Below are positions 27,264-64,000 of a stretch of DNA of 64,000 bases, piece by piece. Source of the DNA: Isoetes taiwanensis (Eukaryota; Streptophyta; Lycopodiopsida; Isoetales; Isoetaceae); the NCBI GenBank assembly GCA_021234155.1, contig JAJEKV010000059.1, forward strand, positions 1,159,844 through 1,223,843, in the 5' to 3' direction. How positions within the stretch are numbered: the first letter of the stretch is position 1; the number at the start of each line of letters is the position of its first letter. The notes beneath the pieces were generated by a model. It worked only from the letters and a program-made list of their open reading frames with translations. It did no database searches and was not told the DNA's origin. The position numbers and the translations under genes were made by a program.

Positions 27264-28053
27264 TTGCTAACACCCTATTCTTAAGATACCTTGTCAAAAC
27301 AACCACAACTTAAAAAGCAATGGTATATTTAATATACCGCCACCATTGTAACAATGAGATAAATAAAAATACTGTAGCTTTTGCAGGTAATGTAGCATCG
27401 GCCTGTGCAAGCAGCTGAACTTGACTTTGCAAATTCCAATCAAAGGTAGGCCTAAACCTCGTGGTGGTGAATTTCAAATACTGACACCATGCTCAATTGA
27501 ATTGTTATCCAGATTGTTATCTAGGGAACTGTTATTGCCATCAGTGCCATCATGTGCTGTTACTGCCATCATATCCAGATTTGATTGGGTAAGTCATTTA
27601 ACCAAGTCAAGGGCCCCCGTAATACACCCAAGGCCGTTTACCATAGTTTAAACTTGTCACGGGGGGAACTTTGAACATGTAAAGCACTTGCATTGTTAAC
27701 TGACCAGCTTGCTCCTGAAGGACTATATTTGCAATTTCTTGAGCATCCAGAAGTAGCATGTGTTCCTAGGCTAAAGTTTCTGTAGTGCATACAGCACCTT
27801 CAGCTTAAGTTTATTGTAGAAGTCTACGCATATTATATAGCAGTATGCTATCATGTTCCTACGCATCCAATAAGGCTCTTAAGACATGGGGTTGGTTACC
27901 AGAACTTCAGTTAAAGCAAGAGTCCTTGAGCACATAAATCAGCTTCCAACCCTTTCGCGTGCTTGAAATGTATACCTACCATTCCTACTTGTATATTTCT
28001 ATATTATTTATCCTGCAGTCAACCACAAGAAATCATTTTGATAAATCTATGCA
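27264..28053. other. No gene recognised
   Basis: Intergenic sequence between the transposase-like remnant and the solo LTR. Short frames only. Confidence 0.4.
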
Positions 28054-29370
28054 TGTGACGTCCCCTACTTCCTCTACGATTCACACATCGTATTAGAAGG
28101 CGGAGCATATCCCCTGTCAGCCAAACTGGTAGGGGCCATCCACCTGACACCACTCTAAGTGGAATGAGCCAGCAAAAGAGTGGATGTGTCATTCACCCGT
28201 CTCTCTTCGGGTCGACATAGCTGCGAAAGCATGAATAAACATGAGCAGATAATATCAATATATCAATACAATCACCTCAAGGTGAACACATCATAATCTT
28301 CACATATACAACAACATCAACATGAGCAATAACAACAAGGGAAATGCTACCCGGGGCTCAGACTCAAGGGGGTTCGACTAACGGCTTGGGCCTCCAGAAG
28401 TCATTGCAGACAGAATTCATGGCAAATGGATTTGGCTGGCATAAGAACATGGCTGAGGGTAGTCCACTCCATCTGCCCCTCCCGTGCACACTTTGCAGAG
28501 TAGGTTGAAAAGTATTGGGACCTGACCATAGCCTGCCGGGTGCATAGCCAAAGGGGCTACTGCTGGGTTGCATTTCCCCAGTCCCAATGAGGCAGGAGGG
28601 GAGTCACCTCCCCTCCAGAGGCATCCATGCCCATCACAGGTGGCTAGAGGGCCACTGCCCGTATTCGACTTGAACCTCATGGAAGGTGACGCATCACCCC
28701 AGAGGTGTCGAGCTCATGCCTTGCCCACACTGAGTGACAAGCCATTAACCCTAGCCCACATAGACCCCTGGTAGGCTTTACACACCAAAGGGGTCAAATC
28801 ATGATGGGACAAGTTCCTCCTTGTCAACCGGTCTAGCCCCGCCACCAACAACCAGGCGGGCTCCTGTGTACGGGCCGCATGTATTTGGGAACTAGTAGGC
28901 TGTCTAGGATCATCTGTTATATAGGCTTTAGGCCTCTACCCCCCTTCCCAATACATGGAGGTCACAGAGTGAAATACCAACATCATCATAGAACTGAAAT
29001 GAAGAATAACATCTAATCTATCTACCTAAACATCCAGAGTTAGGTTCCTTTATTAGGGCTTATGATCTCGGGATCTGTAAGGCCTCTACGGCTGAACTAA
29101 CATGCTAAACCAGCTTATTGCCTAACCAAAAGGCGGCTTTGCACAACAAAATGACTAATTACCTGCTACTCGACCTGCTCCAGATCCTTGGAATGCATCC
29201 ATGCCTCTGATCCTGCTGAAGACTGCTGCTACTCGAAGATCTGTTGTGCAAAGGCAGCTTTTCAGAGCCTGGCAATGCGAATTGGGGTCTTGGCTTGGCC
29301 GAAATGGCTCAAGAGAACCCTAAATGCGAGAGAAGGAAAGGAGCTCAAGGAAAACCCTAAATGCAAAGAG
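28054..29370 (-). mobile_element. Solo LTR of the element B/C family, U3 missing
   Basis: Minus-orientation LTR starting TGTGACGTCCCC on the plus strand, closely matching the element C 5' LTR (63,395 onward). The match to the element B LTRs is reverse-complement. No PBS lies beside it, so it is solo. Homology ends near the leader-proximal AAACCCTAA-type repeats (about 29,320-29,370), and the U3 part is absent. No target duplication is apparent. Confidence 0.8.
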
Positions 29371-29397
29371 AAGAAAGATTTAGAAGCACAGTTTCAT

Positions 29398-34186: not shown

Positions 34187-35747
34187 TAGACGTTCCAAAG
34201 ATAATATACCTAACACGATATATTATATCAAGCCACGTTACACGCATACGTCACAAGTGACATGTACTTGAGAGTAGGACAACGTTGCACCTAGGAGCTA
34301 AAGGTTGCACCTAGGGGGCAACCTTGGATGTTGGGTATGTAATTAAACATACACAACAAAAGGTTCCTTGTGGATGCCCTAACCTAGATAGGGTCTATAT
34401 AAGGGCTAAAACCCTAGACCCTAGCTCTCCTTTCACTTTGCCAATTAGGGTTTTCTAGAGCTTCCTTTCCTCTTTTCATAATTAGGGCTTTCCCCGGGCC
34501 AATTCGCCAAGGTAAGGCTCGAAATCGCATTGCCAGTTCAAAAGTCGGATTTGCACAACAAAGTTGCCGAGTAGCACCGCTTTCGCAAGATCGGGAGCAT
34601 GGACGCCTTCCAAGGATCAGAGCAAGCCAAGGAGCGGTGTATCTAGTTGTTCTCACAGCAAAACCGCCTTTAGGCATGGCAATATACGGTTTAGTATGTT
34701 AGATCATCTCCGGAAGCCTCAGAGATCCCTAGATCCGAGACTCTAACGAATGAACCTAACATTGGATGTTAAGTAGATAGATTGATATGATTCTCTATCT
34801 CTGCTCGCGGATATTGCATGTATTCCACTCTGCGGATCTCCTTGTTGTGGGAAGGGGGTAGAGACCCAAAGGTCGTGGTAGAAGATGCTCCTAGCATAGC
34901 ACCTTAGTTCCCACGTAAAATGCCGCGGTATGTGAGCCCACCGGGCCGTGGGTGAAGGGGCAAGGCCGGTTGATAAGGAGGAACTTGTCTCATCGCTGAC
35001 TGACCCTCCCTCCGGTAGTAAAGCCTATCGGGGTCTTTGCCGGCTAGGTTTAATGGCTTGCCACCGCGTGTGGGCAAGGCATGAGCTCGACACCGTGGGG
35101 TGGTGGATATGACCTTCCGGTGAGTTCAAGTCGAATAAGGACAAGTGGCCCTCTAGCCGCTGCGATGAGCATGGATACCTCCGGAGGAGAGGCAACTCTC
35201 TTCCCCGCCCATCGGGGTTGGGGAGATGCAACCCAGCAGTAGTAGCCCCTCCGGCTATTCACCCGGCAAGGCTACGGCCAAGTCCCAACACTTTTCAAAC
35301 CTACTCGCAAAGTGTGCACAGGGAGGGGCGAATGGAGTGGACTACCCTAAGCCATGTTCTATGCCAGCCAAATCCATTGCCATGAATTGCCTCGCAATGA
35401 ACTCGGAGGCCCTAGCCGCCGGGCCATCCCCTTGAGTCTCGAGCCACCGGTAGGACCTTCCCTTTGTATTATTGTTATGAAGGTATTGCCGACTCGTGGA
35501 TGTTGCTATTGTTATGGTGATTATGTTGTATATTATTAGTTGTGCTCACGCTTTGTTTGTTACGCTTCCGCAGATAGGGTCGCATCCGATGGAAGACGGA
35601 TGAATGACACATCCACTCTTCCCTTGCCGGGCTCGGCCCCATGGGAGTGGAGTCAGTGGATGGCCCCGTCGTGCACCGCTAGTGGGGAATGCTCCTCCTT
35701 CGAAAGTAACGATCGCGGGCATCATATAAGGAGTAGGGGACGCCACG
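34187..35747 (+). mobile_element. Element B 5' LTR
   Basis: 1,561 bp, starting TAGACGTTCC (the usual TG start mutated to TA) and ending GGGGACGCCACG against GGGGACGTCACA in the 3' LTR. It contains a TATA box and a run of AAACCCTA-type repeats around the expected transcription start. The start was placed by the TGGAT duplication. Confidence 0.88.
34396..34403 (+). promoter_or_regulatory. Element B LTR TATA box
   Basis: TATATAAG about 210 bp into the LTR, followed by the AAACCCTAGACCC block where transcription would start. In the 3' LTR the same place reads CTATATGGGC, a decayed box. Confidence 0.65.
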
Positions 35748-35748
35748 G

Positions 35749-35760
35749 TGGTATCAGAGC
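35749..35760 (+). other. Element B primer-binding site (initiator tRNA-Met)
   Basis: TGGTATCAGAGC, complementary to the initiator tRNA-Met 3' end, one base after the LTR. This exact 12-mer is shared with element A. Confidence 0.93.
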
Positions 35761-35961
35761 ATGATCTTGGCATCCAAGATCGAAAGACCGCCATTTTCCC
35801 TTTAGGACTAACAAGAGATTCGAAGTCTTGGGGTATAGCCACCCAAGCAAGAGCTTCGAGCAATTGGGAAAATTTCCAATTTTTGGGTAGATTTTAGCTC
35901 CATGATAGATTGCTAGTGAAGTGTAGCATCTTTCCCAACCTAAATTGGTTAAAAAAATAGG

Positions 35962-36243
35962 CCACCCCTCACGAGTGCGCCAAAGACCATTCGGCCAAGA
36001 AACCGATTCTCCCAGCGCATTGCGGTGAGTGGTTGACCTCCGCTGACCCTAGTTAGGTGTCCCAATTAATTAAGATAATGGTGTAGTTGGCTTATTCCCT
36101 TAGTTCTGGATAGGTTTGTATATTATAACACTAAGAAACTCCCCGTAAATTGTAAAATAGCCTCTGAAGCGAGCCGACCCACAGAGGCGCCAAAGACCAT
36201 TCGGTTGGTAATCCGACCGCCCAAAGACTTGTGTGAGTGGTGG
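35962..36243 (+). repeat. Leader hairpin modules, two copies (element B)
   Basis: Copies at 35,962-36,035 and 36,173-36,243, about 211 bp apart. Each opens with CCACCCCTCAC-GAGTGCGCC-like sequence and closes with GCG-(T)G-GTGAGTGGT, which are complementary, so RNA or single-stranded DNA can form a long outer stem. A smaller inner stem lies around TTCGG...CCGA. The module lies between the PBS and the H3-like ORF, where retroelement packaging and dimerisation signals occur. Its function is unknown. Confidence 0.8.
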
Positions 36244-36462
36244 GTGTTTTGGAGTATGGTGAGCCCAAATGAATGCCTCGTACCTTCGCTAATGCCCTAG
36301 TTGTTTTTTTTCCCCATATGAATTGCAGGTCCCAACCCTAAATTCCACCTCCCTATAAATACAAAATTAGGGTTCCCATTTTACCCCCACCTTTCCCGGA
36401 GAACAGCTCGCCCAAGAAGACGATCTTCAGGCGCCAAAGCTCGAAACCCGACAAACAAAAGC

Positions 36463-37673
36463 ATGGCACGGACGAAACAGACTGCCCGCAAGGTTATGCC
36501 ACCCGGTTATGTGAGCCAGAGGGGAAGCCGTCCGGACGTAAGGCCGACGGAGGCAAGTGCACATCGGGAAGAGGAGGCACCGGTTGAACCACCTAACCCT
36601 AACCCCTCAAGAGCGTGAACAGTGTATCGGAGAACCTTTGATCGGGAGGCGGACGCCGGGGGCGGAGCCGGCGGAGGGAGCGGGCCGAGGGAAATCTTCG
36701 GGATAATGAAGAACCACAAAGCCAGAACCAAGAAGAAGAAGAGGGAAAGAGAAGAAGGCGAGCCGAGGAAATCCAAGGCGGAGCGTCGGAGGGAAAAAGA
36801 AGAGCGAAGAAAGAGGAGGGAGGAGAAGGAACAGAAGAGGGAAGAGAGGAGGAAGCGCAAAGAGGAGCGGGAGAGGGTGAGAGCAGAGAAGGGTAAAGAC
36901 CCGAAAGTGCCGGCGGAGAAGCCGAAGAAGAAGAAGACACCGGCCGCGGCAGTAACCATACAGGAGCCGGATCCTGAGAAGCCCCCATCCTCGTCCGACT
37001 CCGAACCTGAGGAGGGAGCGGGAGGACACGAACCAGGAGAAACTTCGGGCCCTTCAAACCCAATACCGGAGGAAGAAGACCTGCGGGCCAATGCAACCGC
37101 CTCTATCCTAAATGGCCATCGCCGGCACCCCAAATGACAAAGACTAAGAAACCAAGGCCGCAGAGGGAGTCCTATGCGCTGAAGCGGGACTTGCAGTACC
37201 GGAAGGAGCTAAAGGAGTATACTGCGTACATGAAAATGTATGAAGAATACTCCAAATATTACGAAGAACACAGAGTGAAGACCATTGAGGGAGGTCGGCC
37301 AACGAAGAAGAACACGTTGAAGAGGCCACCGAACACCAACCCCTCCAAGAAGCCATGAAAAAGACCGGGCGGACTCAAAATTCGCGAGGGCGCCCAAGAA
37401 ATCAAGCACTTCCAGCAGAGCTATGGCTTCCCTCATTCCTGCAGCCCCCTTTGCACGCTTAACGAGGGAGATTTTGCGGTGAGTTCACCCATCCAAACGG
37501 GTCACGGACGACATGTTGCTCGTGACCGCAGAGGCGTCTGGAGCAAAGACATTACACTACCGAAGACTTCTATGCGTGGTGCTCAACACGCTAAGAGAGT
37601 GACTTGCATGCCCAAGGATATTAGACTAGCTCAGTTTATTAAGAAGGAGGGCCCCCCGAACTATTGTAAATGA
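36463..37673 (+). pseudogene. Histone H3-like fusion ORF of element B (H3 tail + charged segment + H3 fold)
   Basis: An ORF of about 403 codons between PBS and gag. It opens with ATG and MARTKQTARK, identical to histone H3 through K9, followed by V instead of S10. A TGA at 36,616 (probably from CGA) interrupts, then the same frame runs to 37,137 through a Lys/Arg/Glu-rich stretch ending in an acidic PPSSSDSEPEE block. The frame moves by one base near 37,134 into a Tyr-rich block (YMKMYEEYSKYYEEHR). It then reaches the H3 fold: alphaN QEIKHFQQ (37,398), alpha1 LIPAAPFARLTREIL (37,423-37,480), alpha2 KRVTDDMLL (37,495) and alpha3 HAKRVTCMPKDIRLAQFI (37,587-37,650). HFQ and LIPAAPF resemble CENH3; loop-1 length and MPKD resemble canonical H3. 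Stops at 36,616, 37,356 and 37,478 fit CGA-to-TGA changes. Nucleosome incorporation is untested. Confidence 0.9.
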
Positions 37674-37799
37674 CCTTTTCTTTGGTATAAGTCTATAATT
37701 TTGATAAATAAATAAGTCGAATCGAAGTTTAAATAGGGTGTATTGTCGTAATTCTACATTTAGAAATAGCAAAATTCGGAACAAACCAGGCATTTTGAT

Positions 37800-38283
37800 C
37801 CCACCCCTCACAGAGTGCACCCCAACCCATTTGGGTTTGCAAACCTAATCCCACCCCTCAAGACCGGGTGTGAGTGGTTGAGCATGGTTTGGTGCCAAAT
37901 CTTGCCTAAATGCAGAAAGTAGCTATACTATTCGACCTAACTCATCCTAGTTAGTAGGAATTGACCCCTAATCTGCCCAAATTGGCCAACGCCGGGTCAA
38001 ATGGAGCTCCACCCCTCACAGAGTGCGCCCCAACCTCGGGTTTGCAAACCGATCCCACCCGGCAAGATCAGGTGAGTGGTCGAACCCCAAACTCCACCAC
38101 AACTTGCCCAAATAAGGTGTAGTAAAGGCTCAATCCTATCTATCTCATGAGATATCCGTGATTATGTCTTTAGTTCTCTAGTTTAGCATCATTAGTGACC
38201 TAAACAGTAGCCCACCCTCACGAGTGCGCCCCAACCCATTCTGGCTCAAAACCGATCCCGCCTCGGGCGACTGCGGTGAGTGG
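37800..38283 (+). repeat. Second hairpin array, three copies (element B)
   Basis: Copies at 37,800-37,880, 38,008-38,082 and 38,210-38,283, period 202-208 bp. Each has CCACCCCTCACAGAGTGCGC-type opening and GGTGAGTGGT-type closing arms. The first two carry GGGTTTGCAAACC-like inner arms in place of the TTCGG inner stem. The array begins about 125 bp after the H3-like ORF, mirroring element C. Confidence 0.82.
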
Positions 38284-40193
38284 TCTCGTCCGAATTGATC
38301 CAAGTTGTCCTTAGACTAACCAAAATCATTGCTTAGGGACCCTTAGGAGCATTTCCAAGCTCAGTTAGCCTACAAATCATACCTCTAGACCTCGAAAAGT
38401 CGAGAATTGTAAACCTAAAATTTTCCCAAAATTAGGGTTTTGCCTATAAAGGGGAACCCAAGTGTCATTTGCACCTTCCAACCTCGCTCTTCGCTCCAGT
38501 TTTCCATTTCTCTCGATCCTTAGGGCGCCTCAGACTGGCTGTCATCCCCAGCTCCTCGATTGCTCATGGCCACTTCTTCATTCAAGCGATGGTACAAAGC
38601 CACGGCCATCTTGGAAGCCGACATCGACTGTCTTCATTTGTCTTCCGAAGGGAACTTGACATTGAGGCCACCATCAACGCCACTCCCTTCTACGAACATC
38701 ATGTCTGAAGTTCCATGCCAAGATAGGACCCTTTCTCGTAGAACTCCCACCTTGTGTAGGGTATTTTGCACCTAACACTGCCCCTCAAGTCAGCCCCCGC
38801 AAGATATCCCAAATGTAGATAAGTACTTAGAGAATAAAGCAACCGCCTTCCCAACTACATGTCCATCTCTCACAATAGGAGGAGGTACTTCTCCTATACA
38901 AGAAATGCCAGCCATCTTTCTATCTCTTCGGGTCAAACCCAGATAGGGGAACCCCGGTGCCGCCTTTTAGAAGTTGAACCCATAGCCATGGCCGCAGCAG
39001 AGGAGGAACGGATGCACTCGAAAGCACGACAGCAAGAAGAAGAGGAGGAGGATGAATATAATCAGACCTTTAAGACTTGGATCTAGAACAGAGAGGCGCC
39101 AGCGTAACAAACAGATCCAAAGCTTCAAAGAGGGACATGCGAAAACAAGAAGAGCCCCACCCACTGGGGGGGCATTACAAGCTTGACTTCGGTGTTCATA
39201 GTAAGCGAGGCATATCTAACCCTTCACGCACATCAAGAATCTTCCACAAAGGTCGGTGGCTGCAGGCCTTAGGGTGGATGAGATTTTACACCTTCTACGA
39301 CAAAACAGTGTGATCTCGACGATTTCATCGATCGAGAAGCCCGTGACTTCCCTATCAAAGATAAGAGAAGCCAAGACCTTCACCTACGAGACATCATCGA
39401 TATAGAGGCTTACGCAGGGCATCGATGCATGATGATGGGCGAAACGAATTGCCCCCTGAGGAGGAGTTCATGGCAATTCAGAACAAATGGGCATCAAAGG
39501 CAAGTCCACATCAAAGATTATTACCGAAGCTCGCCAACACCCATCCCAAGCAAAGATGGAGGCGATCAACCTAAGGAGGCTGGTGCACCAAGACTTCGTG
39601 AGAGCTAGAGGAAATACCGATTGGATGACTTCGGAAGGCAGGGCAACTTCCTCGTCTGCGAAGAAGAACGGGGGCATGATAAGGCGCCGGATACTACCTT
39701 CTTGTCGGGCCGCCGGAAGAATAGCGTTATTCACCGCCAATTTAGCCCAAGAGGTGAAGAAGGGGTCTTTATGCTTATCGCCCTCTCAGGTTTGGACACC
39801 ATGCACGATTACCTCCAAACATCGACCATGTTGTCCCGATCAAGAGAGCGATTGCATTGACCATCTTCGACTTCGCCATCCCTTATAGGCGTAGGCGATT
39901 GGCAAAGGATAACCGCAGATACATCGGATAGGAGAATTCAAGACATGGAGGCAAAGACTCCAAGGAGGAACGTCAACAAATATCCTCGTGAACTTAACAG
40001 ATCATTAGGTACGCCCAAGTGAAGAAATTTTTGAGGACCACCGATTACCTCAAGAAGTTTGAAGAGTAAAAGTTTATTAATTTGCATGTAAAAGTTTATT
40101 ATATATGAATATAATATATATCTCTTTTTGTATATAATTGTTCCCTCAAATTGTATAAACAAGTAAAACAACGAACACACAAAACAAGAACTA
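38284..40193 (+). other. Uncharacterised segment between the H3-like ORF array and gag
   Basis: About 1.9 kb with short open frames at 38,462-38,775, 38,859-39,086 and 39,487-39,888 but no family I recognise. The start ATGGCCACTTCTTCATTCAAG (38,566) and an acidic QQEEEEEDEYN block (about 39,030-39,060) suggest decayed coding. An AT-rich patch lies at 40,075-40,160. Element C has no counterpart because a LINE fragment occupies the place. Confidence 0.5.
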
Positions 40194-41445
40194 ATGATCG
40201 AATGTACTCTAATGTGCATGCAGCTAGAGTACCTAGAAACCTTGATGAACACAGTGCAGAGAACAAGGACGCACTCCCCACCAAGGCGCTTCCTTCCCGA
40301 GGAATTTGGCGCCGTGAGACTGGCGCGTAACACCGAGGAGGAGCTATCCCAAATCGACCGACGACATCCACGCACATATAAGGGCATTGCTAGGTGGGCA
40401 AAGCAGCCAGCAGGGAGGACAGACTGTAATGTGCCCTTGCCGGAAACGCCACCTGGCCGAACAAAGGCAACGAAGGAAGAGAAGCGTATGAGAAGATCTC
40501 CTAGCTCGGGATCCTCAAGCTCCAAATCTGATACGTGACCGGCATCGAAGAGCAGAAGAAGAGGCACGAGGTCGCCGGCAGGATCCAAACCGTGACAGGA
40601 CAGATCACGACCGATTACTGTAAGAAAGTTGACTCTGCCCTTAGTAATGTGTGGAAAGCCGTAGTTAGAGCAGTTTTAGGGAAAAACCAGATCCGAATGG
40701 AAGCAGAGGTATGGCTGGATGAGATGAGTGAGTATGGCAACGCTTCTATGGCATGAAAGATAAAGACAAAGGCAGGGTAGCAAAAAAGAAAACCTCAAGG
40801 GGTGCAGCCAGAATTTGGTGGAAGGGGTATGCCAAAGCACATGGGCCGAAAGGGACAGTTGCAAATTCAGGAAGTTTGCCAAGGCGTTCAAACATCATTA
40901 TGTACCAAGAGAACATAAGTGCAACATGATGCAGCAGTTTTATAGGCTGCAACAGGGCAACAAATCAGTCCAGAAATACACGGAGGAATTCATGAGACTA
41001 AGGCTTTATGTGCCAAAGTTGAGTGAAAAGCATGCGGTGGAAGGCTATATTGAAGGCTTGAACGATGAGATCCGCAGCTTGTAAGGGCAATAAACTCCGT
41101 CCAGGTGGTCGAGGCGAAGCAAAGGCCATAAGTTTGCAAGGAACAAGTCCACAAGAGCAGGCTTCAAGGCAGCAATATTTCCAGGATAAGGGGAAGAGCA
41201 CAGGGGGCTATAGCCCAAGGGCGGCAAGCCCAGTAGCTAGCAAGACGCAGTACAATTCAAATTATGGGAAGCAAGGCAACACAAGTAGTGGCAAGCAGGA
41301 AAAGAAACAGGTAAGCTTCAAGGAGCAAGGAGCCAAGTCTAACTACTCCCTAAGCGGTGAGGCAATTTCGCAGTCCATTCCCAAGGAAAAGAAGTGGGAA
41401 TGTATAGAAGCAAACGTGTTTCAGATGCTTCCAGCAGTAGTATAG
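40194..41445 (+). pseudogene. gag: Gag polyprotein of element B
   Basis: Capsid-type gag of Ty3/gypsy. A basic, proline-rich N-terminal part (40,194-40,538) is followed across frame changes by GKNQIRMEAEVWLDEM (about 40,680), RGAARIWWKG (about 40,800) and an intact stretch at 40,815-41,084. This has FRKFAKAFKHHYVPREHK, QQGNKSVQKYTEEFMRL and AVEGYIEGLNDEIRSL, the diagnostic Retrotrans_gag core. The C-terminal part to 41,445 is Gln/Lys/Ser-rich. I do not see an intact CCHC zinc knuckle. Frameshifts break the product. Confidence 0.88.
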
Positions 41446-41559
41446 GACCAACAATCGCCCGATTATGAATGCGGCATTGGCGAGCTGGGATGGGAGACAC
41501 CATCTGACGCAGACGACGACGAAGCACCGGGATTACATCCATGGTGAGTGTCACATCTT

Positions 41560-41985
41560 TCAAAACTATTGATACGGTGGAATGCAGAAAGTCAAGATAA
41601 AGTGATCTCAACGACCGAAAAGCCCAAGAGAAATCCTTTATAGTATTGATAGACTCGAAGCGGGGCCATAATTTTGCATCCCCTAGGATGGTAAGCATGT
41701 TGAAGTTAAAGCCGTTAAAGTCCAAGCCGTGCCGCTGGTGTTAGCCAATGGAGCAATTAGGCATACAAATGGGAAGAGAATAAACTTCAATGTAGACTTG
41801 CTGTGTGTTAATGTTGCATTGGGAGCGAAGTCATGAATATAGGCAAGTATGATCTCATTATTGGAATGGAATATCTTGGACCAGCCAGGAGCAATCATCG
41901 ATTGGGGAAACGTAAGGTGACCTTTAACAACGCCAGAGGGCAAAGTCATCGAGATCACGTGTAAAGAAGTAACCCCAATCATGCA
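41560..41985 (+). pseudogene. Retropepsin (protease) region of element B
   Basis: Between gag and RT. A degenerate active-site motif ID-S...GHNF occurs near 41,650, followed by LVLANGAIRHTNGKRINF and then YDLIIGMEYLDQPGAIIDW (about 41,845-41,905) in another frame. These are the ANG and IIGM(D/E)(W/Y)L signatures of gypsy aspartic proteases. The catalytic Asp-Ser-Gly is distorted by an insertion at a CG site, and frames are broken. Confidence 0.7.
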
Positions 41986-42113
41986 ATGCATGAGTAGCTT
42001 AAAAATTGCTTAAGTGCATAAGAAAGCGGCCCAGGTGGCCTATCTCCTAAGCTTGAGCTCCAAGATCAGAGCCGGAGAGAAATAAAGAGATCAAAGAATC
42101 TAGCAAGCTTCCC

Positions 42114-42876
42114 ATGCCAATAGCAAAGTTGATCGAGGAATTTCACGACTTGTTCCCTGATGAGATTAAGCAGCTTCCGCCCTATAGAGGAGTCGAGTGT
42201 GAAATAGCACTTGAACCTGGGACGAAGCCTACAAGCAAGGCACCTTATAGGATGTCAACCGAGGAGTTGACAGAGTTAAAAAGCATTTTTGCAAGAATTG
42301 CTAGACTTAGGGTTCATAAGACCTAGTGTCTCCCGCCTCTGAGCCCCTATTCTCTTTGTGAAGAAGAAGGATGGGAGCCTTAGGATGTGCATTGATTACC
42401 GCCAGTTAAATAAGCACACCATCAAAAATAAGTATGCCTTGCCTAGGTCAGATGACTTAATGGATCAGTTGCAGGGAGCAAAGATCTTCTCCAAAATAGA
42501 TCTCAGATCAGGATATCACCAGATTAGGATCAAGGAGGAAGACATTCATAAGACAGCGTTCAGGACAAGATATGGGCACTATGAGTTCACAGTTATGCCC
42601 TTTGGATTGTCTAATGCACCAGCAACATTCATGAGATTAATGAACGACGTCTTCCGCGAATTTCTAGATTCCTTCATCATAGTCTTCTTCGACGATATCT
42701 TGGTTTACAGCAAGTCTGTGGAGGAGCACGCCCAACACTTGAGGAAGGTGCTTGAAAAGTTAAGAAGGCATCAACTCTTTGGCGGTTATCGGCGCCACCG
42801 CGAAACGGAAAGAGTGGAGTACTTGGGGCACGGATCACAAAGCAGTAAGGCATTTCCACACGCACCGCGAAGATAG
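42114..42876 (+). pseudogene. pol: Reverse transcriptase domain of element B
   Basis: RNA-dependent DNA polymerase. The pre-RT segment LIEEFHDLFPDE and LPPYRGVECEI lies at 42,114-42,326. After a short break, 42,358-42,876 gives [48 protein letters not shown] and the catalytic FFDDILVYS block. All catalytic Asp residues are present. The frame is lost at about 42,780, where the sequence should give the thumb motif. Confidence 0.93.
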
Positions 42877-43521
42877 AAGCCGCGGATCGGGCTGGCCGGC
42901 ACCAAAGAATACGATGAAGTCGAGCTTCCTAGGGCTAGCAGGGCTATTATAGAAGATTTGTCAAGAATTTTGCCAAGGTAGCGCCGCCATTAACGGATCT
43001 CACAAAAGGTGGGAAGATAAAAGATTGGGCAGCCCATTGGCAAAAAACAAGGCCCGAAAAGCATTTGAGACGCTTAAAGGAAGCTTTGACGATGGCGCCG
43101 ATTGGTCTTGCCCAGATCCCACCAAAGATAAGCTTGTAGCAACAGATGCTAGCAGATAGCGACAGCGCAAATTCCTCATGCGCAGGAGGAAAGAGTAGTG
43201 GCCTATGATTCCAAGAAGTTGAACGACGCCGAGCAGCGCTACCCAACGCATGATCAGGAGCTCCTGGCTATAGTAAGGGCTTTAAGAATTTGGAGGCATT
43301 ATTTATTGGGAAGAAAATTCCAGTTAGACACGGATCATCAAAGCCTCCAATATATATTTACGCAGCCGCTCCTTAATTTGAGGCAAAGGAGATGGATGGA
43401 ATTCTTGGAAGAATATGACTTTGAGATAAGTTATAAGCCGGGAAGCTCAATGTGGTTGGACGCCCTTTCCAGAAGCCCTTGGCAACCTGAATTCATTGTA
43501 ACGCCATATCAACACTTGTAA
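42877..43521 (+). pseudogene. pol: RNase H domain of element B
   Basis: The connection region (FLGLAG, then KDKRLGSPLA, AFETLK) is frame-broken. RNase H follows: LVATDAS near 43,136 supplies a catalytic Asp, then an open stretch from 43,198 gives SKKLNDAEQRYPTHDQELLA, FQLDTDHQSLQYI and [16 protein letters not shown]. It ends in WLDALSR, the usual (A)DALSR junction to integrase. It would degrade RNA in the RNA-DNA hybrid. Confidence 0.9.
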
Positions 43522-44800
43522 GTGAGTTTGGCAAGAAGATTGAGGAAGCATTGCCGACGGACCCCGACTTCAAGGAAGTTTGGGCCAGCCTTCCAAAGAG
43601 GCCAGGACCCATAAGGAAAGGGAGATGTTCAGCACTATAAGAAGGAAGGGAACTTGCTATATTATAAAAACAAATTGTGTGTACCCAAAATCTTCGAAAG
43701 TTAGAAAGCTTATTTTGAATGATACACACAATAGTCCCATAGCAGGGGCATCGTGGTTCATGAAGACATATTTCAAGATTAGAAGCAGATTTATTATTGG
43801 CCCGGCATGAAGAAGGAAATAGCAAGATATATAGAGAGTGCCGATATGCCGCCAGACAAAGGGCGAACAACTCGGATCCGGGGGCCTTGGAACCATTGCC
43901 CGTGCCAAATGCTAAGTGGGAGGTGATAAGTATGGATTTTATTATAGGACTCCCAAGAACAAAGCAAGGGGCAAAGATGCCTTGATGGTGGTAGTAGATA
44001 AGTTGTCAAAGATGGCACACTTTGTGCCGCGGCAGACAACAGATAATGCATTAGACACACCAACCTATTTGTTAAGGAGATTTTAGGCTCCATGGCATGC
44101 CAAGGGAGATAATCTGAGGATAGAGACTCCAAGTTTATGAGTGCCTTTTGGCGGGACCTATTCACCACCATCCAGACGAAGCTTTGATGAGCACGGCATA
44201 TCATCCCCAAACAGATGGTCGAGGCGGAGAGGACAAACAGATCATCGAAGATATGTTAAGAAGCTATGTATGGAACAAGCAATCCAAGTGGGATGATTTC
44301 ATCTACCTAGTAGAGTTTGCCTACAACAAAGACTAAAGCGAGAGTCATCGCAGATGAGTCCTTTTATGATTAATTACGGCATCCAAGGTGTCTTACCCGG
44401 ATACTTGGCACAACCTCGCGGTCCAAGGTGGAAGTCCCCGCCAGATGCTTTGGAAATGCAAGACTTGGTGGAGGAAGTGAGAGGATATCTCGCCAAGTTA
44501 AGAAGGTGCGTAAAAGCACGGCCTAATAGACAAGCATAGAACGGTAAGAGAATTTGAAGTGGGAGACAAAGTGTGGTTGAAGATCAAAGTCAAGCAGGCC
44601 AAGCTCAAGATCGGCAATTGCAAGAAGCTTGCTCCAAGATGGGCTGGACCCTTCTTAATAGATAGAGAAGAGAGTAGGTAACCAATCCTACAAGTTGGAC
44701 TTGCCAAAGACATCTTAAGATACATAAGGTTTTCCACGTAAGTTTGCTAAAGAGGCACACCCCAAACCCAGGAAATATTGGAGACAAACGAAGTTTTAGA
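43522..44800 (+). pseudogene. pol: Integrase of element B, chromodomain lost
   Basis: The zinc-binding N-terminus shows THNSPIAG and FMKTYFKIRSRF (43,715-43,800). The core has NAKWEVISMDFIIGLP with the first catalytic Asp (about 43,905-43,960). STAYHPQTDG follows at about 44,187, but the expected QTE(R) Glu motif is scrambled by an indel. The C-terminal GPY/F-like part is VREFEVGDKVWLKIKVKQAK...LAPRWAGPF (44,540-44,655). After EMTCYG (about 44,810) the chromodomain present in element C is missing, while the downstream AAGGTAGATTA sequence matches C again. A deletion removed the domain. Confidence 0.87.
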
Positions 44801-45548
44801 AATGACATGCTACGGGTGCTCTCTAGGACCAATTCTCTAGGGCGTGGTGTAATGTCAATGTAGGCATGACCGCGTTTTCCGCTTGTTTGAGTGGAAGGTA
44901 GATTAGAAGTCTACTGTCCCCACGGAAGTAGACGACCTCGAGAAAGGAGGTCATTGAGAGATGCATTGATAGGAAAAGCACCTTTAGCCCCATATATCCT
45001 TTGATAGGAGGAATCTATCCCTTCCGCCCCATATACGGGAAGGATATCCTCCCGATGGGCAACTAGAGGTGTAGGCATGAGCGGCATATAGGCATATAGG
45101 CTTATCTTTTCGCCGGGATGGGAGAAACATAATCTTCCTATGCCTTAGAAGAGATATGCCTTGCATCCATATAATTGTATTTAATGGGTGGTTCCCTTAC
45201 AACCAACCCTTATAATAATAATTAAAATATATACTAACGTGAAGCGCACATCCCGCAGCAACTAGAAGGACCGAAGCGGCGAGGAGGGTAGCGCTACAAG
45301 AACTCACAACGCATAGTTTTGCAATAATGTGTTGTGAGGAGGGACGAGGAAGTTTTTTTAGTTAAAACCTTAAAGCTATAATTGACCTTAATTTTGTTAT
45401 AGTCGATTATGAAGTAGAGGACGGAAGAGCCTCTCACCATAGTACAATTACAAAGTAAACTATAAAAATTACCGGGGTGATTAATATAATATGGATATGT
45501 AAGTGTTGTAATTGCGGGATATGCGGTACCCAAGGTGGGGAGGCAGCG
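44801..45548 (+). other. Element B 3' non-coding region
   Basis: Matches the corresponding stretch of element C (for example CCCACGGAAGTAGAC and AGGAGGTCATTnAG). No ORF of note. A TGATGCCG...CGACATCA imperfect palindrome closes it (45,549-45,569). Confidence 0.6.
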
Positions 45549-45572
45549 TGATGCCGAGGGGCGACATCAAGT

Positions 45573-45587
45573 CAAGGTGGAGAAGAA
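45573..45587 (+). other. Element B polypurine tract
   Basis: CAAGGTGGAGAAGAA immediately before the 3' LTR start TGTGGCG. Confidence 0.88.
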
Positions 45588-47172
45588 TGTGGCGTTCAAA
45601 AGATAATATACGCCCCAATCACGTATATTATACTGTTATCGTCCTGCATATGTCACAAGTGACATGTACTTGAGAGTAGGACAACGTTGCACCTAGGAGC
45701 TAAAGGTTGCACCTAGGGGGCAACCTTGGATGTTGGGTATGTAATTAAACATACACAACAAAAGGTTCCTTGTTCATCCATTTCCAAATGGCCTAAAGCC
45801 ATTTGCCCATGTGGATGCCCCTAACCTAGATAGGGTCTATATGGGCTAAAACCCGAGACCCTAGCTCTCCTTTCACTTTGCCAATTAGGGTTTTCTAGAG
45901 CTTCCTTTCCTCTTTTCGCAATTGGGGCTTTTCGGGCCAATTCGCCAAGGTAAGGCTCGAAATCGCATTGCCAAAGTTGAAAAGTCGGATTTGCACAACA
46001 AAGTTGTTGAGTAGTAGTTTCGCAAGATCAGAGCATGGACGCTTCCAAGGATCAGGAGCAAGCCAAGGAGCAGGTATCTAGTTGTTCTATTGTGCAAAAC
46101 CGTCTTTAGGCATGGCAATATGCGGTTTAGTATGTTAGATCATCTCTGGAAGCCTCAGAGATCCCCTAGATCGAGACTCTAACGAATGAACCTAACATTG
46201 GATGTTAAGTAGATAGATTGATATGATTCTCTATCTACGTTACGTGATATTGCATGTATTCCACTACGTGATCTCCTTGTTGTGGGAAGGGGGGGTAGAG
46301 ACCTAAAGGTCGTGGTGTAGAAGATGCTCCTAGCATAGCACCTTAGTTCCCACGTAAATGCGCCCGGTGCACGTGAGCCCACCGGCTGTGGGTGAAGGGG
46401 CAAGGCAGGTTGATAAGGAGGAACTTGTCTCATCGCGGACCTAAGCGGGTAGTAAAGCCTATCGGGGTCTTTGCTGGCTAGGCTTAATGGCTTGCCACCG
46501 CTAGCGTGTGGGCAAGGCATGAGCTCGACACTCGTGGGGTGGTGGATATGACCTTCCGGTGAGTTCAAGTCGAATAAGGGCAAAGTGGCCCCCTAGCCCT
46601 GCGATGAGCATGGATACCTACGGAGGAGAGGCAGCTCTCTTCTGCCTCATCGGGGTTGGGGAGATGCAACCCGCAGTAGTAGCCCCCTCGGCTATTCACG
46701 GCGGGGCTACGGCCAAGTCCCAACACTTTTGACCTACTGCGCAAAGTGTGTGCGGGAGGGGCGGATGGAGTGGACTACCTAAGCCATGTTCTATGCCGCC
46801 CAAATCCATTGCCATGAATTCATGCGCAATGAACTCGAGGCCCTAGCCGTCCGGGTCATCCCCTTGAGTGCGAGCCCGGGTAGGACCTTCCCTTTGTATT
46901 ATTGTTATGAAGGTATTGCTGACTCTGTGATGTTGCTATTGTTATGGTGATTATGTTGTATATTATTAGTTGTGCTCACGTTTGTTTGTTACGCTTCCGC
47001 AGATAGGTCGATCCGATGGAAGACGGATGAATGACACATCCACTCTTCCCTTGCTGGCTCTGCCCCCATGGGAGTGGAGTCAGGTGGATGGCCCCTGTCA
47101 GGCAGCTGCCAGGGGGAATGCTCCTCCTTCGAGTACAATGCGGGCATCGTATAAGGAGTAGGGGACGTCACA
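45588..47172 (+). mobile_element. Element B 3' LTR
   Basis: 1,585 bp, TG...CA. Relative to the 5' LTR it has a short extra segment around 45,776-45,812 (CATTTCCAAATGGCC region) and many small differences centred on CG-containing words; the remaining sequence is nearly identical. Confidence 0.9.
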
Positions 47173-56639: not shown

Positions 56640-56887
56640 ATGAAATTGTGCTTTTAGGGTTTAAGGAGAAAGCCTTTATATAGAAACCCTTAGGGTTAGG
56701 TTAATATTGGCCAAATGGGATTTCGCCATTTGGCATGGGGTTTATAGTTGTGTGTGTTTATTAAACATGCACAACATTCGAGGTTGCCCCCTAGGTGCAA
56801 CGCTTTGTGGCTCTCAAGTGCATGTCATCATGACATGTACGTGTGACGTGGCAGTATAATATACGTATTCGGGTCGTATATGTCACA
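56640..56887 (-). mobile_element. Element C 3' LTR, partial
   Basis: In element orientation it starts TGTGACATATACGACCCG at 56,887. It shares the TGACATGTAC / TTGAGAG / GTTGCACCTAGGGGGCAAC text of the element B U3 and has a TATA-like CTATATAAAGG at about 56,675-56,685. Similarity fades near 56,640, so R/U5 is missing. Confidence 0.75.
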
Positions 56888-56900
56888 TTCTCTCCACCTT
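56888..56900 (-). other. Element C polypurine tract
   Basis: Minus strand AAGGTGGAGAGAA directly before the LTR. The TGATGCTG-AGGA-CAGCATCA palindrome is just inside (56,905-56,924), as in element A. Confidence 0.85.
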
Positions 56901-57625
56901 GACTTGATGCTGTCCTCAGCATCACGCGTCTCCCCACCTTGGAAATCTGCATATCCTGCAATCATATTCAATATATATACAATGTTTATAATGCAATTAC
57001 TTCAAGGTAATATTTTAATTTATCGTAACACATCCTTGTTAATTTTGTACTATGGTGAGAGGCTCTTTCGTCCTCTACTTCATCATCTATTATTCACAAT
57101 TTTTTTTTTTTTTTTTACGACTTATGCCATTATTATAAACATAGTTCAAAATTTCCCTAATTAAGGTTCCGTATCGTCTCCTTACAACATATTATGACAA
57201 AATTATGTGTTGCAAGTCTTTGTAGTGCAATCTCCCTGCCGCTCGACTCTTCTATTGGCCTGCAGGTTCAACACTACGTCAGTATACGTTTAATTATTAT
57301 AAAGGTTGGTTGTTAGGGAACCACCCATTAAATACAATTACATGAATGCAAGGCATATCTCCCGGCATAGGAAGATTATGTTTCTTCCATCGTGGCCGTG
57401 GAGACAGCACCCTATCATGCCTAGGATGCTCACTCATGCCTACACCTTTAGTTGCCTTTGGCGTGGAGGATAGCGTCCTTCCCGTATTTGGGCGTGAAGG
57501 ATAGAGTCCTCCCCGTAGTAGGCATTGACTAGAGGTGCTTTCTTATCAATGCAGACCTGAATGACCTCTTATCTCTCAAGGTTGTCTACTTCCGTGGGAC
57601 GGAAGTAGACTTTTTAATCTACCTT

Positions 57626-59293
57626 TCACTCACCTATCGAGTCAATGTCGACTACTTCGGTGACGAGCCAACCCTTGCATTGCTCCATGAATTGGGGGTA
57701 CTGCTTCTCCAAATCTGATTGTAGTACCCACGTAGCGTCTTCCACAGGTAAGTGCGTCCATTTCACTAGGTATTGGAGAAAATGGGATCTTCTTGTCTTC
57801 CTATAGGCCCTGTCAAGAAGAACCTCTGGGACGATTTCAAGCGGGTCGTCCGTCATTTCCAGTAGCTCAGTTGTCTCCAATACTTCCTCTGGATTAGGAG
57901 TGTGTCTCTTTAGGAGACTTACATGGAAGACCCTATGGATTTTGAGATGTGCTGGCAGATCCAACTTCTCGGATTGGGTACCTACTCTTTTGGTTATCCT
58001 GAATGGCCCAGCCCATCTTGGAGCAAGCTTCTTGCAATTGCCGATGCGGAGCTTGGCCTGCTTCACCTTGATCTTCAACCATACATTGTCTCCCACCTCA
58101 AATTCCCTTACTGTCTTGTGCTTGTCGGCGATGCTTTCCTGTCTACTTCTTGCTGCTAGGAGGTATCCTCTCACCTCCTCCACCAACTATTGCATCTCCG
58201 AAAGCATTTGCTGGGAGACTTCTACCTTGTACACTGGATTGTGCTAAGTATCCGGGGTAAGACACTGGTACCCATAATTGATCATAAAAGGAGACATCCG
58301 CGATGACTCCTGCTTGGTACTGTTGTAGGCGAACTCTACTAAGTGGATGAAATCATCCCACTTACATTGCTTGTTCCAAACATAGCTTCTTAACATATCT
58401 TCAATGATTCTATTGCTTCGCCCCGTCTGACCATCTGTTTGCAGATGATATGCTGTGCTCATGGAAAGCTTCGTCTGGATGGTGGTAAATAGGTCCTGCC
58501 AAAAAGCATTCATGAATTTAGAGTCTGTATCCGAAATTATCTCCCTTGACATGCAGGCCGTGGAGTCTAAAAATCTCCTTAATAAATAGGATGACAGTAT
58601 CCAATGCAGTGTTTGTTGTCCTGCACGGCACAAAGTGTGCCATCTTCGACAACTTATCGACCGCCACCATCAGGGCATCCTTGCCTCTTGCTGTTCTTGG
58701 GAGCCCTGTAATGAAGTCCATGCTTATGACTTCCCACTTAGCATTTGGCACTGGCAACGGCTCCAAGGCTCCTGGGATTCGGAGTTGCTCCGCCTTTGTT
58801 TGATATCTGGCACTCACGAATGTCCCTTGCTATCTGCCTCTTCATGCCGGGCCAGAAGTAGCTGCTTCTAATCTTGAAGTATGTCTTCATAAACCCTGCA
58901 TGCCCTGCTATGGGACTATTGTGTGTATCATGGAGGATTAGCTTCCTTACTCCTGAAGATTCTGGTACACATAATTTGTTTTTATGGTATAGCAAGTTAC
59001 CCTCCTTATAGTGCCTGAACATCTCCCTTTCCTTATCAGTCCTGGCCTCCTTACAAAGACTTGCCCAAATTTCTTTAAAGTCGGGATCTGTTGGCAAGGT
59101 TTCTTCGATCTTCTTGCCATACTCACTTGTGACATTGCAATGCGTCCTTGTCTTCAACGACTTCCTGGAGAGCGCATCTGCCACTACATTGAGCTTACCC
59201 GGCTGTAGATTATCTCAAAGTCATACTCTTCGAGAAACTCCATCCACCGCCTTTGCCTCAGATTGAGGAGTGGTTGTGTGAAAATATATTGGA
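57626..59293 (-). pseudogene. pol: RNase H end and integrase with chromodomain, element C
   Basis: The RNase H tail ([12 protein letters not shown], about 59,230-59,290) runs into integrase. Zinc-binding N-terminus: THNSPIAGHAGFMKTYFKIR (58,860-58,930). Core: KWEVISMDFITGLP (about 58,720), DTDSKFMNAFWQDLF (about 58,510) and QTDGQTGRSNRIIEDML (about 58,420). The catalytic Glu expected after DGQT reads Gly. C-terminus: VGDNVWLKIKVKQAK, LAPRWAGPFRI, then a chromodomain at about 57,690-57,830 (HFLQYLVKWTHLP, EDATWV). Chromodomains of chromoviruses bind methylated histone tails and steer integration. Frames change twice and the Glu change would abolish integration. Confidence 0.88.
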
Positions 59294-61045: not shown

Positions 61046-61074
61046 TTAGGACAACTTAGGACAATTATAGTGTG

Positions 61075-61352
61075 ACCACTCACACAGTGCGCGAGGAGCA
61101 AATCCGAGAATGGCGGATTTGGACTGGGTGCACTCTGTGAGGGGTGGGGCCTTGTTTGGGTCGAGGATGATGCCAAACATGCAAACTAAGGGTGAAATCC
61201 TGCTCATCTCGTCGAGATAGGTCGGATTGTGCCCTTACTTTCTTCATTTGGTCAAGTTTTAGCATAGATTAGGGGCCGACCACTCACACAGTGCGCGAGG
61301 AGCAAATCCGAGAATGACGGATTTGGTCTGGGCACACTCTGTGAGGGGTGGG
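61075..61352 (-). repeat. Second hairpin array, two copies (element C)
   Basis: Copies at 61,075-61,148 and 61,278-61,352, 203 bp apart. In element orientation each reads CCACCCCTCACAGAGTG(C/T)GC...AAATCCG, a loop around CATTCT, then CGGATTT...GCGCACTGTGTGAGTGG. Outer arms of about 18 bp and inner arms of 7 bp pair, giving a two-step hairpin. Confidence 0.88.
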
Positions 61353-61491
61353 CCAAAAACACTGAGTTTTGCTCCAAATTTGGTGATTCCAAGTGCAGAA
61401 GTTATTAATACAACCTAGATAATTATGATTTAACACATTAACATGGCAAAAAAAATAAATTTGTATTTACAAAATTATTTACAATAGACTA

Positions 61492-62672
61492 TTAGTCTTC
61501 CTTCTTAATATATTTGGCCAGCTTCATATCCTTAGGCATGCATATTACCCTTTTTGCATGTAGGGCACATGCTACCGAATCTTCAAAATGCTGGACGATC
61601 TTCTGCTCGGCCGCCTCCTATAGCGCGAGTAACATGTCGTCTGTTACTCGCTTGGTATTGTTGAATTTCTGGAAGTGTCGGATCTCCCGAGCAGCTCTGG
61701 CAAAATACGAGTCCGCCTTTCTCCTAATGGGCTTCCTCGGAGGTGCTGGTCTTTCCGGAGGCGGCTTCAAAGTATTCTTCTTAGTAAGCCTGCCTCCTTC
61801 CACATAAGCGACCCTGTGCTCCTCGTAATATTTCGAGTACTCCTCGTACATTTTCATGTACTGGTTATACTCTTTTAGCTTCTTCCTGTACTCAAGCTCG
61901 TGCTTGAGTACATACAACTCCCTTGCAGGCCTCGGCTTCTTCTTATCTGCTGCCGGGTGCTTGGGTGAAGGCCATCTTGGGTACGGGGGTACCTCTGCTG
62001 TAGGCTCCTCCTCTTCGTTACCTGCATTCGAGGGTCCGGAGCCTTCAGCTAGGATAGGGACCCTTATCTCCTCGTTTGACTCAGTGTCAGAGGAGGAGGG
62101 CGGCTTGTCGGACTCTTGCTCCCGTATGACGACTCCTTTTACCGGCGTCGTCTTCAGCTTGCGCCGGGTCTCCTTGGGTAACTCGGGGTCTTTCCCCTTG
62201 TCCTCCTTCTTCTTCTGGCGCTCCTCCTTGCGTTTCCTGTGCTCCTTCTTCTTCTTTCTTCTCTCCTCCTTGTGCTTTCTACGCTCTTCTTTCTCCCTCC
62301 TGCGCTCCTCTTTGGTCTTCTTGACCGCTACTTCTTCTTCATTCCTTTTCCTTTTCAGCCCCTTCTTCTCCAACCTCTTCAGCTCCCTCTTCAGCTCCCT
62401 TCTCAGTTCCTCTTCAGTTCCCTCTTATTCGTGGCCTGGCTCGCTCTGGCTCCCAAAGCCCTCCTGTGTCTTGGGCTGCTCCTCCTCAATGTCATGGGCT
62501 CGCTCCTCCTCCTGGTGCTCCTGGGCCTCCTCTTGGGCGTCTGGATTGGCTTCTACGCCCTGTTCTCTCCTGGCTCATTCCTGAGCCTGTCTCGCCTTCT
62601 GTTGGGCTGCTTGCTCCTGGGCGCTGACATAGTCCTCAGGACGGTACGGGCAGTCTATTTGGTTTGGGCTAC
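61492..62672 (-). pseudogene. Histone H3-like fusion ORF of element C
   Basis: Homologue of the element B ORF, about 393 codons. At 62,672 the H3 tail survives as A-Q-T-K-stop-T-A-R: the start Met reads Val, Q5 is TAG and K9 is Thr; PEDYVSAQ follows, matching PPGYVS of B. A stop near 62,430 precedes a long open stretch (62,373-61,618) with the Lys/Arg/Glu segment, the PPSSSDTES block and YMKMYEEYSKYYEEHR. The H3 fold is ARAAREIRHFQK, DDMLLAL, a TAG in place of Gln, EAAEQKIVQHFEDS, then HAKRVICMPKDMKLAKYI, ending at TAA (61,492). Compared with B it lacks about 22 residues covering alpha1, so even the restored frame would give an incomplete fold. The stops fit C-to-T decay of CAG codons. Confidence 0.88.
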
Positions 62673-62890
62673 GTTTTGAATCAAGGCAATCGGCTTCCTA
62701 GCACCTAAAAATTGTCTTCTGGGACGAGGAGCTGCTTGCTGGAGGAGGTAAGTGTAAATGAGGAACCCTAATTGTCTACTTATAGGTAGAGGGATTTTAG
62801 GGTTTGGTCCTGCAATTCCATATTATGTCATTCTAGAAGGTATTAGTGTAGATATGATGAGTACATTAGATTTATTTAGCCAAAAAGCAT

Positions 62891-63180: not shown

Positions 63181-63381
63181 TCTTTTTGGCCAAATTTGGT
63201 TGGGTTTTTTGCTAAAACTTACTAGTACTAACTTAGCATTAACCTATTGCTGCACTAGAGATTGGAAAAAATTTTCCCCAATTTTTCGAGGTTCATGCTT
63301 AGGTGGTTATTCCCAAGACTGGAAGTCTATTGTTAGTCCTACGGAAATGGTCAGTGCTCGATCTTGGTCTACCAAGGTCAT

Positions 63382-63394: not shown

Positions 63395-64000
63395 TGTGAT
63401 GTCCCCTACTTCCTCTACGATGCACACATCGTATCAGAAGGCGGAGCATTCCCCCTGTCAGCCAAACTGGCAGGGGCCATCCACCTGACACCACTCCCAG
63501 TGGAATGAGCCAGCAAGGGAAGAGTGGATGTGTCATTCACCCGTCTCCCTTCGGGTCGACCTAGCTGCAGAAGCGTGAATAAACACGAGCACATAATATC
63601 AATATATCAATACAATCACCTCGAAGGTGAACACATCATAATCATCACATATACAACAACATCAACATGAGCAATAACAACAAGGGAAATCCTACCCGGG
63701 GCTCAGACTCAAGGGGGTTCGACTGACGGCTTGGGGCTCCAGAAGTCATTGCAGACAGAATTCATGGCAAATGGATTTGGCTGCATAAGAACATGGCTAA
63801 GGGTAGTCCACTCCATCCGCCCCTCCCGTGCACACTTTGCAGAGTAGGTTGAAAAGTATTGGGACCTGACCGTAGCCTGCCGGGTGCATAGCCAAAGGGG
63901 CTACTGCTGGGTTGCATTTCCCCAGTCCCGATGAGGCAGGAGGGGAGTCACCTCCCCTCCAGAGGCATCCATGCCCATCACATGCGGCTAGAGGGCCACT
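63395..64000 (-). mobile_element. Element C 5' LTR, partial (cut by window end)
   Basis: On the plus strand it starts TGTGATGTCCCC and matches the solo LTR at 28,054 onward almost throughout. The remaining 5' portion lies beyond the window. Confidence 0.9.

Follow-up and report, generated by a model that had tools for sequence, protein, structure and literature searches.

A captured histone H3 as an accessory gene of a Ty3 retrotransposon clan in Isoetes taiwanensis

Background

Viral histone mimics exist, and in plants H3K9me2 and CHG methylation form a loop that jointly silences transposons. Among transposable elements, fungal hAT DNA transposons of Pyrenophora tritici-repentis, and of Pseudocercospora fijiensis and its kin, carry histone H3 according to two reports (PMC6710886, PMC3538342), the former of which describes these H3 copies as either recent (26, 23 seemingly coding) or inactivated by RIP. 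A Ty3/gypsy lineage of orchids contains an additional ORF with an AlkB domain, thought to counter host control (PMC12786077, in excerpt), and the VANC proteins of VANDAL transposons are anti-silencing proteins encoded by the elements themselves (PMC10398659, in excerpt). Furthermore, H3 with methionine in place of lysine 9 (H3K9M) has a dominant effect, in that the K9 methyltransferase becomes trapped on it (PMC5030085, in excerpt).

A preliminary description of the DNA studied here knew of no described retrotransposon with an H3-derived ORF. Searches of the open-access literature agree, in that no LTR retrotransposon with a histone gene was among the papers listed, the fungal hAT elements with H3 being DNA transposons (PMC6710886, in excerpt). 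The word histone is absent from the main text of two Isoetes genome papers (one of them PMC8566536), of a review on additional ORFs in plant LTR elements (PMC7264820) and of a review on gene capture (PMC13317346). In this paper, we describe a window of 64,000 nucleotides of the Isoetes taiwanensis genome, i.e. the whole stretch of DNA that was analysed, together with related loci elsewhere in the assembly. They belong to a Ty3 clan of the chromovirus type that has almost certainly captured a host H3 as an accessory gene, which encodes a fusion of an N-terminal extension and an H3 fold. The published assembly, made from ONT 9.4.1 and Illumina reads with a pilon step, comprises 1658.30 Mb in 204 scaffolds and 909 contigs (PMC8566536, in excerpt); our own searches were run on an assembly of 1,658,258,908 bases in 1110 pieces.

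Results

Two family members in the window

The window contains two members of the family, elements B and C (Table 1). The histone ORF of element B begins past the PBS and far ahead of gag. The preliminary description had read in it, in this order, an H3 tail, a Lys/Arg/Glu-rich segment, a block rich in Tyr and four H3-fold helices, and all of these were confirmed at 36463-37649; they lie in the correct order in three different frames with internal stops, so that copy B is broken and unable to make the protein. When the last histone piece of B (37359-37673) is taken alone, it stays below the Pfam Histone cut-off (E=0.0023, 18.6 bits vs 26.4). Decisive for the histone assignment is element C (see below), a copy that the preliminary description had missed along with the genome-wide family; uninterrupted relatives elsewhere in the assembly give strong Histone matches as well.

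The charged segment of B (36619-37137) gives a weak match to CAF1A_acidic (Pfam E=0.0067, below the cut-off), the acidic region of CAF-1 p150, which is part of a histone chaperone; charged stretches often match through composition. The differences between the two LTRs of B concentrate at CHG trinucleotides (CTG 4/5 + 13/14, CAG 7/10 + 9/12, CCG 24/29 + 8/13), compared with 13/27 + 7/21 for CGG and 3-35% for ten others. They reflect either mutation or basecalling error at methylated CHG, and the frameshifts and apparent age of B may be in part an artefact.

Table 1. Features of elements B and C in the window
Feature	Position	Strand	Remarks
Element B	34191-47171	+	degraded Ty3/chromovirus-type, about 13 kb
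Element B, 5' LTR	34191..35746	+	87.5% identity to 45593-47171
Element B, PBS TGGTATCAGAGC	35749..35760	+	exact match; presumably fits initiator-Met tRNA; H3 ATG 714 nt downstream
Element B, H3 N-terminal tail MARTKQTARK	36463..36492	+	
Element B, Lys/Arg/Glu-rich segment	36619..37137	+	own frame, stop to stop
Element B, charged block	36766-36900	+	inside Lys/Arg/Glu-rich segment
Element B, Tyr-rich conserved block	37164..37277	+	
Element B, H3 fold (alphaN/alpha1/alpha2/alpha3/alphaC)	37398..37649	+	two frames
Element B, fold piece EIKHFQQ	37398-37418	+	
Element B, fold piece LIPAAPFARLTREIL	37432-37476	+	
Element B, fold piece KRVTDDMLL	37495-37521	+	
Element B, fold piece HAKRVTCMPKDIRLAQFIKKE	37587-37649	+	
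Element B, gag (capsid)	40764..41084	+	Retrotrans_gag E=1.1e-14, Ty3_capsid 3e-9
Element B, reverse transcriptase	42343..42876	+	RVT_1 E=8.4e-36
Element B, RNase H	43153..43521	+	RT_RNaseH E=6.5e-29
Element B, 3' LTR	45593..47171	+	LTR pair alignment
Element C, 5' LTR	63395..64000	-	extends beyond window; 77.7% to B LTR
Element C, decayed H3 tail VAQTK*TART	62643..62672	-	still aligns with MARTKQTARK
Element C, charged segment, Tyr block and alphaN	61618..62424	-	one 268-aa open stretch, stop to stop
Element C, alpha2-alphaC of H3 fold	61495..61656	-	one internal TAG
Element C, integrase end, SH3, chromodomain and 3' LTR start	56747..59293	-	Integrase_H2C2 1.1e-14, SH3_Tf2-1 2.6e-19, Chromo 2e-9 (Pfam)

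Element C lies on the minus strand, with its histone region at 62672-61495. From 62424 onward it reads in a single frame with one TAG in the fold, further stops are found at the tail end, and comparison with relatives indicates that alpha1 is absent from its fold. The 268-aa open stretch has no Pfam match alone. The 72-aa fold stretch, with the TAG taken as X, matches Pfam Histone (E=1.3e-11, 45.3 bits) and PDB H3 chains (E=1.9e-12). B and C agree in both the Tyr block and the fold.

Repeats flank the H3 ORF on both sides in C (61063-61362, 62881-63189) and in B (35961-36217, 37801-38256), with a spacing of 201-213 bp, which is close to the nucleosome repeat; in C, three of the four repeat copies are inverted repeats with arms of 32-45 nt. 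By analogy with VANC systems they are possibly candidate binding sites. A search for their 19-nt motif in 20 type 1 loci (described below), allowing up to 4 substitutions, gave no match. Elsewhere in the window, the repeats at 1-880 and 14613-15499 are 95% identical and probably belong, as LTRs, to another element; the minus strand has an exact PBS-like site at 13889; and an LTR-like stretch in minus orientation at 28049-29372, of which 28054-28656 is 95% identical to the 5' LTR of C, is either a solo LTR or a displaced LTR of C.

A genome-wide family

The histone region is not confined to B. A search of the assembly with a type 2 query (a fragment of C; 8891 candidates, 150 scored) returned 299 matching pieces, where one copy may yield two pieces. 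A search with PF00125 gave 8705 first-look candidates, and among the 150 that were scored, 38 contain a stop-free frame of 396 aa or longer, and the top 15 resemble host H3 genes; eight host-like H3 loci that were fetched encode two distinct 136-aa proteins. Related matches in the assembly number hundreds, many with open frames of about 400-490 aa. Uninterrupted relatives match Pfam Histone strongly, both those of the B/C type (L031, E=3e-21; L039, E=3.5e-23) and those of sister types (L025, E=3.2e-42; L026, E=3.9e-39). Element C and this genome-wide family rule out both a chance resemblance to H3 and a one-off random insertion.

The pattern MARTKQT[A/T]R-x-[V/A] has 421 matches in the assembly, and its reversed control none. 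Among seven of these places that were fetched, two are decayed (L045, L049) and one is an unrelated ORF (L047), so the 421 matches are not all working elements, or even elements. The unrelated ORF opens with MARTKQTARVAG, either by chance or, possibly, because it too makes use of the H3 tail peptide. Three protein searches of a set of 5.8 billion proteins gave no match at the threshold used. The second of them returned only 21 candidates despite a common H3 word, which indicates that the set is probably poor in eukaryotic H3s and that a null result there says little.

Sub-types and architecture

At least five sub-types can be told apart, i.e. 1a, 1b, 1c, 2 (to which B and C belong) and 3. In types 2 and 3, a free N-terminal ARTKQTAR is followed by the charged segment, the Tyr-rich block and the H3 fold. 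Types 1a, 1b and 1c have an N-terminal domain of about 250 aa ahead of the fold, the type 1 order being N-terminal domain, Gln/Glu-rich linker, a tail-like stretch (e.g. RTKHPSTGGKS) and a near-canonical H3 fold. The fusion ORF is present in 20/20 fetched type 1 loci, which were picked for long frames; in L016 and L018 the N-terminal domain is only partly in frame. The three type 1 sub-types differ by this domain (1b comprises L023 and L026-L028, and 1c comprises L054 and L056; L055, fetched with these two, is counted as 1a by its start). The domain has no relative in the PDB (best E=0.71), and 48 pattern matches in IMG/VR yielded none that was confirmed. Type 1c starts MAPTKSTVDP or MAHTKSAPDP (L054, L056), and 1a starts MPRFKLTVDL; these starts could be remnants of MARTKQTARK on the type 1 domain. 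Type 3 (L043, L044) is intermediate; L043 is fully open, and L044 has its tail in another frame.

In 15 of the 20 type 1 loci the H3 ORF is preceded, at a distance of 596-881 nt, by an exact or one-mismatch PBS; none was found within that stretch in L010, L016, L023, L026 and L027. Downstream of the H3 ORF, L011 encodes gag, protease, RT, RNase H, integrase and a chromodomain (E=6.3e-8) in long open frames. The slot between PBS and gag is seen for 1a, for 1b (PBS via L028) and for B, and in the loci read the H3 ORF and gag-pol are distinct frames. A majority of the type 1 loci read also have a conserved ORF2 (MARPTLQQWYLDGEHWDP..., e.g. L015:4075-5520) between the H3 ORF and gag, which is without a Pfam or PDB relative (best PDB E=0.53) and was not detected in B. 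Over 175 aa, the RTs of B and L011 share 80% identity, and part of the LTR (64-167 bp among the 60 matches listed) is shared at 73-91%; hence 1a, 1b and 2 belong to one clan. The H3s carried by types 1a, 1b, 2 and 3 may go back to a single origin, which was not rejected (p-AU 0.195). A capture of the hAT type was rejected, as the ORF is LTR-flanked with gag and RT downstream and no hAT family appeared in the Pfam matches of the ORFs scanned.

Selection on the H3 ORF

The H3 accessory ORF is kept by purifying selection. All pN/pS values cited here were obtained with no sequence pair dropped; an earlier run, in which saturated or short pairs were dropped, leaving 35/91 pairs for the type 2 fold and none for the tail, is not relied on. 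At the same five loci, pN/pS was 0.054 for the H3 fold vs 0.045 for RT; the N-terminal core, at three of these loci, gave 0.152. When every copy was counted, the fold gave 0.104 (20 type 1) and 0.150 (14 type 2), the Tyr block 0.119 (14 relatives) and the charged segment 0.400. Near-saturated synonymous differences raise all these ratios, and the choice of open frames lowers them. As the copies had been picked for their long open frames, they give no estimate of the intact share.

The 14 type 2 loci were selected by Tyr block and open frame, not by the tail, and the H3 tail is present in all 14 (0 or 1 mismatch to the codon pattern). Five other copies (L043, L044, L046, L048, L049) were fetched via the tail pattern and are biased for it, and L045 and L047 were left out of the tail analysis. 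Over the 14 loci, pN/pS was 0.098 for codons 2-9, 0.473 for codons 11-15 and 0.616 for the K9 codon, which indicates that A1 to R8 are guarded and that the guard stops at K9. Changes within A1-R8 occur in single copies (L030, L031, L032, L033, L036, L038). Open H3 ORFs also stand beside LTR pairs with few substitutions, in L020 (38 mismatches in 1448 aligned columns) and in L011 (48 mismatches in 1786 columns, with 131 gap bases). The preliminary proposal, in which a gene of the H3 type was captured by a Ty3 element and has since been retained there as an accessory ORF in the slot ahead of gag, is borne out by this selection and by the architecture of the relatives.

Position 9 of the tail

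ARTKQTAR is the peptide read by H3K9 methyltransferases, and K9I acts like K9M. Of the 14 unbiased type 2 copies, seven have I at position 9, four have K and three have M; in the five further type 2/3 copies picked by the tail pattern this position is K in 2 and I, M and V in one each. When the first 100 of the 421 pattern matches are divided by the following residue, the 63 with Val have K in 25, M in 16, I in 12, V in 8, and R and L in one each, and the 37 with Ala have K in 31. The position of S10 is occupied by V, T or A in the 19 copies read. An intact K9 is found in B and the copies closest to it, in the two type 3 copies and in the 4 type 2 copies counted above. The tail of type 1 is internal and partial, and its RTKHPSTGGK seems to be an H3 tail without TARK, with the K9 context deleted.

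H3 or CENH3

The folds of types 1a and 1b are 81-88% identical to canonical or host H3. For the type 2 fold, mean identity is highest with host H3 (48%), followed by Arabidopsis CENH3 (43%) and CENP-A (41%), and L043 is 60% identical to H3 vs 42% to CENH3. A longer loop 1 is a feature of CENH3, and no such insertion is present in types 1a, 1b, 2 and 3. HFQ and LIP-type residues are common to type 2 and CENH3; H53/F54 match Arabidopsis CENH3 in 14/14 type 2 and 2/2 type 3 copies, and P63 does so in 13/14 type 2 copies. The tree separates types 2 and 3 with CENH3 from H3 with type 1 only at a support of 85/81 (not starred), based on CENH3 references other than that of the host and with long branches meeting. 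The host CENH3 was looked for in the assembly and not found, the search being swamped by element copies. The CENH3 label of the preliminary description, which rested on the HFQ and LIP residues, is hence not upheld as a plain identity: the loop-1 insertion is missing, the fold is slightly closer to H3, and the tree, which placed type 1 with H3, is undecided for types 2 and 3.

We also compared the folds with the interface, DNA-contact and core residues of H3. Residues of the H3-H3' interface are kept in 131/144 (1a), 36/36 (1b), 122/126 (2) and 16/18 (3) cells, DNA-contact arginines in 110/112, 24/28, 61/98 and 11/14, and core positions in 146/160, 40/40, 104/140 and 14/20, respectively. Type 2 has altered P63, V84 and H103, with Pro at R63 and His at L103 each in 13/14 copies. 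By these residues type 1 could enter nucleosomes, whereas type 2, having lost some of the DNA-contact arginines and core positions, may not form ordinary ones.

Discussion

The preservation of the ORF by selection suggests that a borrowed histone would be used to handle or escape silencing chromatin. The best mechanism we can offer is an H3 mimic that would resist or block H3K9 silencing, a reading that we consider plausible, though short of probable. The accessory protein would pair with H4 and would enter or cap nucleosomes on element DNA or nearby chromatin, where it would present an H3 that silencing enzymes cannot use. The many type 2 tails that keep ARTKQTAR and have I, M or V at K9 would form a methyltransferase trap; type 1, its K9 context apparently deleted, would offer nothing to mark; and the element would in this way resist or block the loop of H3K9me2 and CHG methylation. 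Trapping by H3K9M and the silencing of plant transposons through that loop motivate this anti-silencing reading, and the intact K9 of B, of both type 3 copies and of 4/14 type 2 copies indicates that blocking K9 methylation is not the whole function. That the clan maintains a standing H3 variant as a counter-silencing device, with M/I trap tails in one lineage and the K9 motif dropped in another, is a proposal we make tentatively and think rather unlikely.

Alternatively, the H3 fold may tether cDNA or integrase to H4, chaperones or nucleosomes, and so serve packaging or integration targeting together with the integrase chromodomain. This is a serious possibility that on balance we doubt. The conserved fold and H3-H3' interface, the chromodomain of the elements and the location of the ORF upstream of gag are in keeping with a tether, and the near-canonical fold of 1a/1b suits nucleosome entry better than a tail decoy; yet a tether leaves the separate constraint on the type 2 ARTKQTAR and its hydrophobic K9 unexplained, and the ORF is apart from gag-pol in the loci read. 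It is improbable that types 2 and 3, as derivatives or mimics of CENH3, steer the element to centromeres: the matching residues H53/F54 and P63 and the position in the tree agree with this, but the missing loop-1 insertion and the identities to H3, that of L043 included, do not, type 1 is plainly H3, and the tree was built on CENH3 references other than that of the host, with long branches meeting. A passive passenger, i.e. a captured H3 fragment without function, is very improbable. Sequence capture is common in LTR elements, for example with 1343 transduced sequences in sorghum (PMC13317346, in excerpt), and the copies in the window are pseudogenes; purifying selection on fold, Tyr block and tail, the many copies with open frames, the presence of H3 across diverged sub-types and the little-changed LTR pairs beside the open H3 ORFs of L020 and L011 all speak against it.

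Histones are usually regarded as the property of the host, and here an H3 belongs to a family of parasites, in which it has diversified and is maintained by selection. The clan makes it testable whether transposons alter nucleosomes themselves, rather than their readers or writers, to escape silencing, and it provides naturally occurring variants of the H3 fold and of its tail, with K, M, I or V at position 9, that may reflect genetic conflict. If the counter-silencing reading is true, these proteins would be a natural counterpart of the K-to-M oncohistones, and element chromatin would consist of unmarkable H3. There is also a consequence for annotation, as only the best 15 of the 150 scored H3-domain rows look like host genes.

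A captured accessory gene in a retrotransposon is of a known kind; what sets this clan apart is that the gene is a histone. Like chromoviruses, the clan has LTRs, PBS, gag, protease, RT, RNase H, integrase and chromodomain; unlike them, it has an added ORF for the H3 fusion, placed ahead of gag and behind the PBS in the sub-types read that far, and type 1 has ORF2 besides. With the fungal hAT elements it shares a host H3 captured and multiplied by a transposable element, but the Isoetes clan is a retrotransposon and its H3 is fused, diversified and under purifying selection. The AlkB ORF of orchid elements is likewise a host-type domain in an additional ORF, but it is an RNA demethylase and no histone. 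VANC, which is not known to be a histone, is a plant transposon protein that reverses silencing of chromatin and acts through repeated target sites in non-coding DNA (PMC10398659). Its anti-silencing activity has been demonstrated, whereas that of the element H3 is only inferred. Finally, type 2 resembles the H3 K9M mutants (PMC5030085, in excerpt) in having M (or I) at K9 of an H3 tail, and differs from them in that its tails are natural, transposon-encoded and part of a fusion of about 400 aa whose effect on the methyltransferase is putative.
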